A stretch of 46,026 nt of DNA from Stramenopiles sp. TOSAG23-2 (taxonomy: Eukaryota; Sar), in contig LT649284.1 of assembly GCA_900128395.1 (NCBI GenBank), forward strand, positions 1 through 46,026, in the 5' to 3' direction. Under the pieces are notes generated by a model that had not been told where the DNA came from, ran no database searches, and saw only the letters and a program-made list of their open reading frames with translations. The translations under genes were made by a program, and so were the position numbers. The stretch's first letter is position 1. Every line of letters starts with the position of its first letter. Below are positions 35,684 through 42,985 of this stretch, in pieces.

Positions 35684-36155
35684 CATTAATGAAATTGTTT
35701 TTTACACTGCTTGCACTGACTGCTACACTAAAATAAAAATTCGTACGCGCTCTCGTACATGTCATATGTGGCCTCTATGATTGTTCCGTCTGAGTCATGC
35801 ACACATTTATCTACAATCATTCAAATACAATATAAATTCCATGTTTAATAAAATCTCTCTCAAGTCTTGCATGTATATGGGTTTTATATTTAATTACCCT
35901 CTTTGAACATAAACAAGTCCATTAATGAAATTGTTTTTTACACTGCTTGCACTGACTGCTACACTAAAATAAAAATTCGTACGCGCTCTCGTACATGTCA
36001 TATGTGGCCTCTATGATTGTTCCGTCTGAGTCATGCACACATTTATCTACAATCATTCAAATACAATATAAATTCCATGTTTAATAAAATCTCTCTCAAG
36101 TCTTGCATGTATATGGGTTTTATATTTAATTACCCTCTTTGAACATAAACAAGTC
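35684..36155. repeat. 236-bp exact tandem duplication
   Basis: 35684-35919 repeated at 35920-36155 in the GILT 3' flank. Its end overlaps the start of the next duplication, so AAATCTCTCTCAAGTCTTGC occurs three times (about 35850, 36086 and 36318). Confidence 0.92.
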
Positions 36156-36546
36156 CATCATTGATCATTTTTTACATTGTATTGTACATGATTGAATTCA
36201 CTTTTTTAATATAAGATATATAATGTGGCATGTACATTGTATATAACATCATATAACATTTCTGTTTATTGATTAATTAATTAATTGCATCCTTCTGGTT
36301 TATTACTACCTTGAAATAAAATCTCTCTCAAGTCTTGCATGTATATGGGTTTTATATTTAATTACCCTCTTTGAACATAAACAAGTCCATCATTGATCAT
36401 TTTTTACATTGTATTGTACATGATTGAATTCACTTTTTTAATATAAGATATATAATGTGGCATGTACATTGTATATAACATCATATAACATTTCTGTTTA
36501 TTGATTAATTAATTAATTGCATCCTTCTGGTTTATTACTACCTTGA
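36083..36546. repeat. 232-bp exact tandem duplication
   Basis: 36083-36314 repeated at 36315-36546. It includes the last codons of the GILT gene, truncated at the inner edge. Confidence 0.92.
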
Positions 36547-36784
36547 TATAAACTACATACATGTGATAGTAATTGCGACGGATCTTCCATTGGTTTTCCA
36601 TTTACAATTACCCATGGTGTTCCAATTTTAGATGTACCTAATTTGAATTAATTAATTGCATCCTTCTGGTTTATTACTACCTTGATATAAACTACATACA
36701 TGTGATAGTAATTGCGACGGATCTTCCATTGGTTTTCCATTTACAATTACCCATGGTGTTCCAATTTTAGATGTACCTAATTTG
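36507..36784. repeat. 139-bp exact tandem duplication at GILT 3' end
   Basis: 36507-36645 repeated at 36646-36784. It contains the last 43 or so codons of the GILT gene. The copy at 36646 is joined to the rest of the gene. Confidence 0.92.
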
Positions 36785-37515
36785 ATTGTTTCCATTGCAT
36801 TAAATTGATCTACACGATGCCCTTCGGTACCAGATTCACATTGGTTTAAAATATTTGCATCAATTTCAACTGCTTTTGCACATTCATCAACAGCACTTCG
36901 TTCTGCATTATTCATACCTTCAAAACATATTAGAAAATCTAAATATTTAGTTGGATAATGTTTTATTGCACAACCTTCCAAACGATTTGCCCAACATTCA
37001 TCCACTCCATGTTGACATAATATTTCACCATTAAAACAATTTGTTTCATTTTCGTTGATGTTGTTAGAATTTTCACTACATTTATTTATCCAACAATCCA
37101 TTCCTTTCTCTTTATCAAAATTAGGTGTATTGCATACATTGTAATATGCATTACCCCATGGATAAAATGTGAAATTCATAATGTCCAACACACCTTCTGC
37201 GTTGATTGTCTCATTTAATCCACCAGCGACAAAATTGTCGCATTCTGGTCATAATGCTTCTCCATAAAATTGGACTTGTACTAAATCCTCATTATTATTA
37301 ATATTATTATTTAATGTTGTCATTGCAAATGATGTATTAACAGCGACAAAATTGTCGCATTCTGGTCATAATGCTTCTCCATAAAATTGGACTTGTACTA
37401 AATCCTCATTATTATTAATATTATTATTTAATGTTGTCATTGCAAATGATGTATTAATAATAATAATACAACAATATGTTGCAATAACAATATTTTGGCA
37501 TATATTATATTTCAT
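36652..37515 (-). CDS. GILT-family thiol reductase with in-frame UGA at active-site Cys (candidate selenoprotein)
   Basis: Starts at ATG 37515, ends TAA at 36652; with one copy of the in-frame 117-bp duplication removed it is 248 codons, a normal GILT length. Residues 1-25 form a signal peptide (hydrophobic IATYCCIIIINTSFA). The active site reads VQFYGEAL-U-PECDNF: codon 50 is TGA where the family has the first Cys of CxxC, and C53 is the second. The GILT signature CQHGVDECWANRLEGC is at 128-143, and TPWVIVNGK near the end is also diagnostic. GILT reduces disulfides in lysosomal or secreted proteins. The frame is intact on both sides of the TGA, and TGA is present in both duplicate copies (37249-37251 and 37366-37368). 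Alternatives: a point mutation or sequencing error. Confidence 0.82.
37224..37457. repeat. 117-bp exact tandem duplication in GILT gene
   Basis: 37224-37340 repeated at 37341-37457. It is in frame (39 codons) and contains the active-site UPEC region, so an unmerged reading would show two active sites. Confidence 0.93.
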
Positions 37516-40630: not shown

Positions 40631-42985
40631 ATGAATATATTTATCATATTAACAATAATAACCATCATTTCTCTCCAACGAATCGAAGCCTTTGACGTAG
40701 CGACAGTGAAATGGGGAAAAGAACCGATAAAAGTTAGTAGCACTGGACCAGACTCCACATTACCTAATTTTTTTTTCATGGCTGGTGGAGAGGAAGGTGG
40801 AAGTATGTTTGATGGGTACGGGTACACCGGTGGTAAAGGGAATCCATCCCCATATGTACCACCTGATGGTTGTCCTGATGAAATATTTGAAAATACAATG
40901 AAAGATGAGCGAGTGCCACAACTCCCATGGGCATTACAAGAATCATGGGGATGTGAAAGGAAACCAACGGAAGTCGATGCTATTATAATTGAAAATGATT
41001 ATTTACGTGCTGCAGTTACACCTCAATGGGGTGGAAAAATTTGGAGTTTATATAATAAAAAATTGAAACGACAAGTATTTTACAATAACCCAGCACATCA
41101 ACCAGATAACATTGGATATAGAAAAGCATGGACATCTGGTGGATGTGAATGGAATTGGGCACCTGGAAAGATTGGACATTCCGTATTTACGGAATCACCA
41201 GTCTATACAGCTATCATTCCAAGTGACAAAGGTAATATAACACGTGTATGGGAATATGATCGACAAAATAATACCGTATGGTCCGTTGATATTTTAATTA
41301 TTGATGATGTTTTATTTGCACATCCAAAAATACGAAATCCAACCGATGTAGAAATTCCAGGTTATTGGTGGACATGCGTTGCTATGCCAGTAACGGATAA
41401 TACACGTATAATTACACCAGCGGAAGCAAGTTTAACACCATGCACACCATGGCCTGCAGGTGCATGGACTAATCCAAATACTACATTTCGTGGAAGTAGT
41501 CTTGGTACATGCAGGGAGGAAGATACGTGTGCATGGCAACAAGATATGTCATGGCTTGGTAATATTCCACATCCACATGATTTTTTCATGATGATTTCAC
41601 CAGAAAAAGTACCATACATCACACATGTTACCGATGATGGTTTTGCAACCATTCATTCCCATCCAAAAAAAATGAAAGGAACGAAATTTTTCACCTGGGG
41701 ACAATCTGGAATGGGCGCATTTCAACAAGATTTCATGTCTGCATCTGATTATGAAAATCCAAAATGTGATAAACCATATTATGATCCATATTGCGAACAT
41801 TATGAACATGAAGGCCGTTATACGGAATTGCAGATTGGACCGGCACCATCACAAATGCATACATTTCCAATTGGTAAAAATTCATCTTATGAATGGACGG
41901 AATGGTTTAAATCATGGAATAATGGAGATATTAGTAAACTTCATTCATCTCATTATAACGATGCGGTTGATGAGGTCAATAAATGGATGGATTCAAAAGA
42001 AGGAATGTCGCAAACTGAATTGGATGAAATTGACCAATTTATGGAGCAAATGGCTGATGTGAAACCTTTGAAAGAAAATATTGTCTATGAAGGTATGCCA
42101 TGGGGTGGTTTACGTGAAAAATTAGTTGGCCAACCAATCATTGCAAATGGTGCAACGCCATTTTTCCCGCCAAAATATACAGAGGAAACACGTTGTTGGT
42201 TAGATTTAATCGTTAATGGTACATTTAGTGAAGAGACGCTACAATTAAACCCAATTAATTTTGAAATAAGTGATGAATGGGTTGCATTACTACAAAAATC
42301 TATTGCAAATGGACATTCAACATGGTTGCATTATTTATTTTTAGGTACAGTTGATTTGGAAAAAGGAAATGCCAAAAGTGCACGAGAGCTATTCATTAAA
42401 TCATTTACGTTAAAAAAAAGTGTTCATGGTGCAAGAAATCTTGCAATATTTTCAAGTACAAAAACTGAAGCGATTGATTATTACAAACAGGCATGGGATA
42501 TATGGAAAACTCTGGATCCAAACGTTGATGTTGTAGTAGAACGATTAGGTGCAGATCTTACTAGTGAATTTGCAGGTTGGTTAGTTGGAAATGAAGAGTG
42601 GGCGGAATTAAATGCACTGTTGAACGATATAAAATCGAATGGTATCTCTTCATCAATGAAAGAGAATTTTTTAAACCAAGATAAATTATTGCATGCACAA
42701 GCTTGTATAGCAAATCAAAATAAAGATTATGATACAGCAATTAAAATCTTAACCAAAAATTGCTTTCCTACATATGGATCGTTAAGAAATGCCTTGATTC
42801 AATTATGGTTTGAAGCCAATGTCATAAAAGCAGAAACAAAGAAAGGCAGTTCATTGTCCGTATTAGAAACTGTACATTTAAGAAGAGAACTTGGATGTGG
42901 CGGTGATTCCGAAACAACTTTATCCTATAAAAATAATTGTATCAGGGGTCCACCGAATCTAGGATATGCTTATGGTCGTCTATGA
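40631..42985 (+). CDS. Secreted DUF5107 and TPR-repeat protein
   Basis: Single exon of 784 residues, TGA stop. Residues 1-20 (MNIFIILTIITIISLQRIEA) are a signal peptide. Residues about 110-440 match DUF5107, a galactose-mutarotase-like beta domain: TPQWGGKIWSLYNKK near 130, FYNNPAHQPDNIGYRKAW, SGGCEWNW and GHSVFTESPV. The C-terminal third (about 550-760) has helical TPR-like repeats (HYLFLGTVDLEKGNAKSARE, AIDYYKQAWDIWKTLDP, AQACIANQNKDYDTAIKIL), the usual partner of DUF5107 in bacterial proteins. It probably acts on or binds extracellular carbohydrate. There are N-glycosylation sequons (NGT, NNT, NSS). The family is common in bacteria and scattered in eukaryotes, so transfer is possible. Confidence 0.78.
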   Translation: MNIFIILTIITIISLQRIEAFDVATVKWGKEPIKVSSTGPDSTLPNFFFMAGGEEGGSMFDGYGYTGGKGNPSPYVPPDGCPDEIFENTMKDERVPQLPWALQESWGCERKPTEVDAIIIENDYLRAAVTPQWGGKIWSLYNKKLKRQVFYNNPAHQPDNIGYRKAWTSGGCEWNWAPGKIGHSVFTESPVYTAIIPSDKGNITRVWEYDRQNNTVWSVDILIIDDVLFAHPKIRNPTDVEIPGYWWTCVAMPVTDNTRIITPAEASLTPCTPWPAGAWTNPNTTFRGSSLGTCREEDTCAWQQDMSWLGNIPHPHDFFMMISPEKVPYITHVTDDGFATIHSHPKKMKGTKFFTWGQSGMGAFQQDFMSASDYENPKCDKPYYDPYCEHYEHEGRYTELQIGPAPSQMHTFPIGKNSSYEWTEWFKSWNNGDISKLHSSHYNDAVDEVNKWMDSKEGMSQTELDEIDQFMEQMADVKPLKENIVYEGMPWGGLREKLVGQPIIANGATPFFPPKYTEETRCWLDLIVNGTFSEETLQLNPINFEISDEWVALLQKSIANGHSTWLHYLFLGTVDLEKGNAKSARELFIKSFTLKKSVHGARNLAIFSSTKTEAIDYYKQAWDIWKTLDPNVDVVVERLGADLTSEFAGWLVGNEEWAELNALLNDIKSNGISSSMKENFLNQDKLLHAQACIANQNKDYDTAIKILTKNCFPTYGSLRNALIQLWFEANVIKAETKKGSSLSVLETVHLRRELGCGGDSETTLSYKNNCIRGPPNLGYAYGRL

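Follow-up and report, generated by a model that had tools for sequence, protein, structure and literature searches.

The window analysed here is a 46,026-nt stretch of DNA that forms contig C51 of the Stramenopiles sp. TOSAG23-2 genome (17.45 Mb in 793 contigs), which we take from its sequence to be eukaryotic. Its GC content is 26–37% per 2 kb, and its minus strand carries a candidate selenoprotein gene of the GILT thiol reductase family. As assembled, the open frame (36652..37515, minus strand) starts at an ATG at 37515, matches the Pfam GILT profile and terminates in a TAA at 36654-36652. The hydrophobic N-terminus (MKYNICQNIVIATYCCIIIINTSFA; 37441..37515, minus strand) is, judged by eye from the translation, a probable signal peptide. 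Codon 50 (37366..37368, minus strand) is a TGA in the context YGEAL-TGA-PECDNF, and the CQHGVDECWANRLEGC GILT signature (CQHG) is present in the frame. The start codon, hydrophobic N-terminus, TGA codon, GILT signature and TAA stop given in the preliminary description of this locus were thus all found in the sequence. That description mentioned a single TGA, at codon 50; the codon is indeed present, but the same TGA recurs at codon 89 (37249..37251, minus strand), contiguous with the remaining GILT domain, as the frame contains two identical tandem copies of a 117-bp unit (37224..37457, in which 37224-37340 equals 37341-37457).

With TGA read as a residue, the second copy scores 73.1 bits against PF03227 (cut-off 22.4), and in an alignment with mouse GILT (PDB 6nwx) the TGA codon falls opposite the first Cys of the active site; the resemblance of the frame to GILT is therefore more than chance. 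Two homologues, P0008 and P0018, also have Cys at this position. The active site reads TGA-x-x-Cys, with a predicted selenocysteine (Sec) in place of the first Cys. Mouse GILT has Cys at both positions (CGAC), in contrast to U-P-E-C in the present protein. The gene product is predicted to adopt the GILT fold.

A search of the genome for the Sec decoding machinery covered tRNA-Sec, SepSecS, SelD and eEFSec, and all four are present, which settles in the affirmative a point that the preliminary description had left to be checked. The tRNA-Sec gene scores 64.4 bits (gathering score 47), has the anticodon UCA as judged by eye, and occurs as an exact tandem pair with a unit of 179 bp (L004:1501-1586 and 1680-1765), probably the same assembly artefact as the duplications in the window. 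SepSecS is split across three stretches, as expected for exons, the best of which scores 217.9 bits. SelD (283.4 bits) is of the Cys form (MRCGGCGSK) and is fused N-terminally to a pyridine nucleotide-disulfide oxidoreductase (L011:94-2631); the five closest relatives of this fusion, mostly environmental, share 68–99% identity with it. Fusions of an oxidoreductase with SelD have been described from bacteria and from scattered protists, with horizontal transfer offered as the explanation in the protists (PMC4561486; also PMC2398784). Domain III of eEFSec was matched at 98.7 bits within a 616-aa frame, whose closest relatives are environmental clusters (79–100% identity) together with a protein from EukProt that is 84% identical across 83% of the query length.

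The contiguous second copy of the GILT protein (223 aa) was used as the query for a homologue search, which returned 19 proteins. Fifteen of them, with identities as low as 34%, have their starting Met downstream of the UGA column (this count includes P0017, whose first five residues were split off by the aligner); P0011 and P0014 start two residues past the column and retain the second Cys. Two further proteins, P0006 and P0016, have Trp at the column, possibly a TGA rendered as Trp by the gene caller or alternatively a TGG codon. The frame downstream of the TGA is conserved, at 99% identity in an environmental cluster of 24 members (P0002; nine contigs, JGI and ENA), which itself starts downstream of the TGA codon, and at 68–71% in three further clusters. 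Introns, contig ends or the choice of the gene caller could lie behind some of the downstream starts. The homologues with Cys or TGA at this position that had been anticipated were thus found in part: Cys occurs in two, and the pattern fits a TGA in most relatives, as read from protein sequences with the codons inferred.

The same genome contains six further genes with a TGA at this kind of site. In family searches over the whole genome, profile matches were translated across stops and the stops were counted. The stretches matched were 29 for thioredoxin, four each for MsrA and DsbA, three each for GILT and SepSecS, and one each for Rdx, SelD, GPx and eEFSec domain III, some of them from one gene. 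No stop was present in 40 of these 47 stretches and one TGA in the other seven, always at a catalytic Cys/Sec position. Besides GILT, the genes concerned are a GPx (NVARLUDVQ), a PDI (FLAPWUGHCK), a PDI-like protein (FCRQGUGYCQ), an MsrA (FGAGUFWKP) and two DsbA-type proteins (UPWCFVGKRR and UPWCFIGKRR), located at L012, L020, L035, L045, L047 and L049; from known family motifs, we take their TGA sites to be the catalytic ones. Other matches were set aside. A second, weak match to the GILT profile (C289; L003:724-2166) belongs to a protein with a RING-like region at its end and no TGA, and the one match to PF10262 lies in a long frame unlike a selenoprotein. The Sep15/SelM family (PF08806) gave no match over the genome, with its controls silent too. 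Scans of viral contigs confirmed no relatives.

The preliminary description had found no clear Sec insertion sequence (SECIS) by eye. Using a descriptor of our own (AUGA, helix II of at least 8 pairs, an unpaired AA 10–18 nt on, and GA), one element was detected in the 3´ untranslated region (UTR) of the GILT gene, with an energy E of -8.0, 11 pairs, the AA at 17 nt and a loop of 32. Its first copy (36315..36405, minus strand) has ATGAT from 36393, AAA at 36372-36370 and TTGAG at 36331-36327; a 232-bp tandem duplication creates the second (36083..36173, minus strand; ATGAT from 36161, TTGAG at 36099-36095). Over both strands of the window (92,052 bases), the descriptor gave 38 matches including duplicate copies, of which two score better than the GILT element. 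SECIS-like elements were also found in five of the six sister genes, including the first DsbA gene (E -10.0); the sixth, the second DsbA-type gene, extends past the contig end. Dinucleotide shuffles of the sister UTRs reached the score of the native element in 0 of 400 cases for GPx, 5 for PDI, 15 for the PDI-like gene (1 with helix I) and, when a long loop was permitted, 1 for MsrA. In PDI and MsrA, no element has a helix I of 6 pairs. The MsrA element (L045, from 2156) was seen only with loops of up to 85 nt, loops of up to 40 nt giving only weaker ones; it has a perfect 13-bp helix II and a 77-nt apical loop, far longer than the others.

When long apical loops were allowed, 90 of 295 matches reached E ≤ -8 in a scan of 37 sequences on both strands (327,716 bases, with 14 overlapping loci left out). 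Energy alone is thus undiscriminating, and the core AUGAU...UGAG, which the GILT element has in common with three of the five sister elements (MsrA, DsbA and PDI-like), was therefore used as a filter. This core was chosen after the elements had been seen, and the scanned loci are enriched in selenoprotein genes. It reduced the 295 matches to 10. The six at E ≤ -4.6 all fall in the UTRs of MsrA, DsbA (two), GILT (two copies) and the PDI-like gene, and the remaining four lie between -1.7 and 1.3. A different candidate suggested by a free-folding SECIS finder (36056-35987 and its copy 35820-35751, E -10.8) was rejected; it has 7 pairs and a 48-nt loop, with no AA near the loop start or adjoining the top of a long helix II.

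Taken together, these features of the frame, the codon position, the predicted fold, the machinery genes, the SECIS-like element and the sister selenoprotein genes suggest, with a probability of roughly 0.93, that the gene encodes a secreted, lysosomal or phagosomal selenoprotein GILT in which UGA is decoded as Sec. The proposal that UPEC is a Sec-Cys active site gains support from the machinery, the homologue pattern and, as a candidate, the SECIS-like element. Several observations weigh against this reading, most of them concerning the SECIS candidate. An equally good element arose in 13 of 400 dinucleotide shuffles of the 700-nt GILT UTR, or in 4 of 400 when a helix I of at least 6 pairs was demanded, and folding of the entire candidate is no more stable than that of its shuffles (z 0.19). 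Its helix I is short and A-U rich, the distance from AUGA to its AA is 17 nt, compared with 13–15 nt in the five sisters, and the GPx and PDI elements lack the common core. The Rfam SECIS_1 model (RF00031) gave nothing over the whole genome at E-values up to 10; Rfam yielded five sub-threshold matches, none of them a SECIS, in the 2.8-kb GILT region at the same limit, and no match over the whole window at the gathering score. The SECIS_1 result discriminates little, since that model misses the sister genes too. Two of the 19 homologues (P0008 and P0018) have Cys at the UGA column, and the duplications damage the assembly around the gene. On balance the GILT element is probably real: the descriptor and the core shared with three sister UTRs speak for it, whereas the Rfam model does not.

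Loss of the Cys codon by mutation would require one substitution, TGC to TGA, and would leave a pseudogene or a truncated protein made from a downstream Met, where close relatives are indeed called to begin. Such a protein would lack the first active-site residue, the frame past the TGA is nevertheless open and conserved to the extent given above, and 15 of 19 homologues start past the same site. A chance nonsense mutation is disfavoured because it would not recur at the same site in homologues and in six other redox genes, and we give it only a slim chance. An error of sequencing or assembly that changed a Cys codon to TGA is suggested by a region full of exact tandem duplications and hence imperfectly assembled. 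Duplications create no substitution, however, the 99% identical cluster P0002 likewise starts past the codon, and like errors would be required at six other catalytic sites, so that this account is hardly credible.

General reassignment of TGA to Cys or Trp would agree with the Trp of P0006 and P0016, which is what a code 4 caller prints for TGA (or for TGG). A reassigned TGA would be scattered to other positions, which makes this explanation very unlikely: 40 of the 47 family stretches have no stop, and in the remaining seven the TGA is confined to catalytic sites. The GPx frame probably terminates in TGA, as do 7 of the 20 long frames in the window (called by a tool that assumes TGA to be a stop), and tRNA-Sec(UCA) accounts for the site. 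The dismissal of a changed code in the preliminary description therefore holds. As for the two TGA codons, the 117-bp duplication is most likely an assembly artefact, because each of the relatives that cover the active site (P0006, P0008 and P0018) carries one active-site segment; there is little chance that the duplication is real and the protein has two UPEC sites.

In the favoured selenoprotein reading, the UGA at the first position of UxxC would be decoded co-translationally as Sec by means of tRNA-Sec(UCA), eEFSec and the SECIS in the 3´ UTR. The protein would be secreted and directed to a lysosome or phagosome. There, attack of the selenolate on a substrate disulfide would give an intermediate to be resolved by the Cys three positions further on (Cys28). 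A selenol has a low pKa and is largely ionised near pH 5, unlike most thiols, which would make Sec advantageous here. GILT is reported to have its optimum near pH 5 and to reduce disulfides of internalised proteins (PMC12691970). We infer Sec insertion, lysosomal targeting and the suitability of a selenol for an enzyme working near pH 5. A broader proposal is tentative and somewhat short of even odds: Sec-GILT may be the normal form in a broad protist group, missed because gene callers cut at UGA, and may be an adaptation to digest the disulfides of putative prey in acid vacuoles.

Whether a Sec-containing GILT had already been described, a question left open earlier, is answered in the affirmative by PMC2398784 (2008). 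On the strength of three ocean sequences from unknown hosts, one of them with a predicted 3´ UTR SECIS, that paper introduced GILT as a new family of eukaryotic selenoproteins. The present gene resembles that Global Ocean Sampling Sec-GILT as a eukaryotic GILT with Sec, a likeness by description and not by Sec position. PMC7539508 counts GILT among the algal Sec proteins with the narrowest distribution, and a figure legend of PMC5917014 includes it among the Aureococcus selenoproteins; with both sets the likeness is one of listing, not residue by residue. The gene is thus a further member of a known family with better context: unlike the three short environmental sequences of PMC2398784, it lies on a 46-kb contig, together with a candidate SECIS, the genome-wide decoding machinery and six sister candidates. 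A literature search on selenoproteins of uncultured marine protists found nothing. To judge from the homologues, many GILT entries in databases may be truncated at the Sec codon, and the gene offers a concrete case for asking why a reductase of an acid compartment would use selenium.

Exact tandem duplications occur at 15 places in the window. Their units measure 95–236 bp (multiples of 3 in 5 of 15), and they lie head-to-tail at 13337-44941, dense from 34430 on and in part overlapping. One of them, a 139-bp duplication at 36507..36785 and a probable assembly artefact, spans the stop codon of the GILT frame. Other loci hold five exact duplications (three distinct, the loci overlapping) in 131,219 bases. 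As a whole, the duplications in the window have the look of assembly artefacts and will disturb gene models. Elsewhere in the window, a 784-aa frame at 40631-42985 combines DUF5107 and SIX1_SD matches within one protein.
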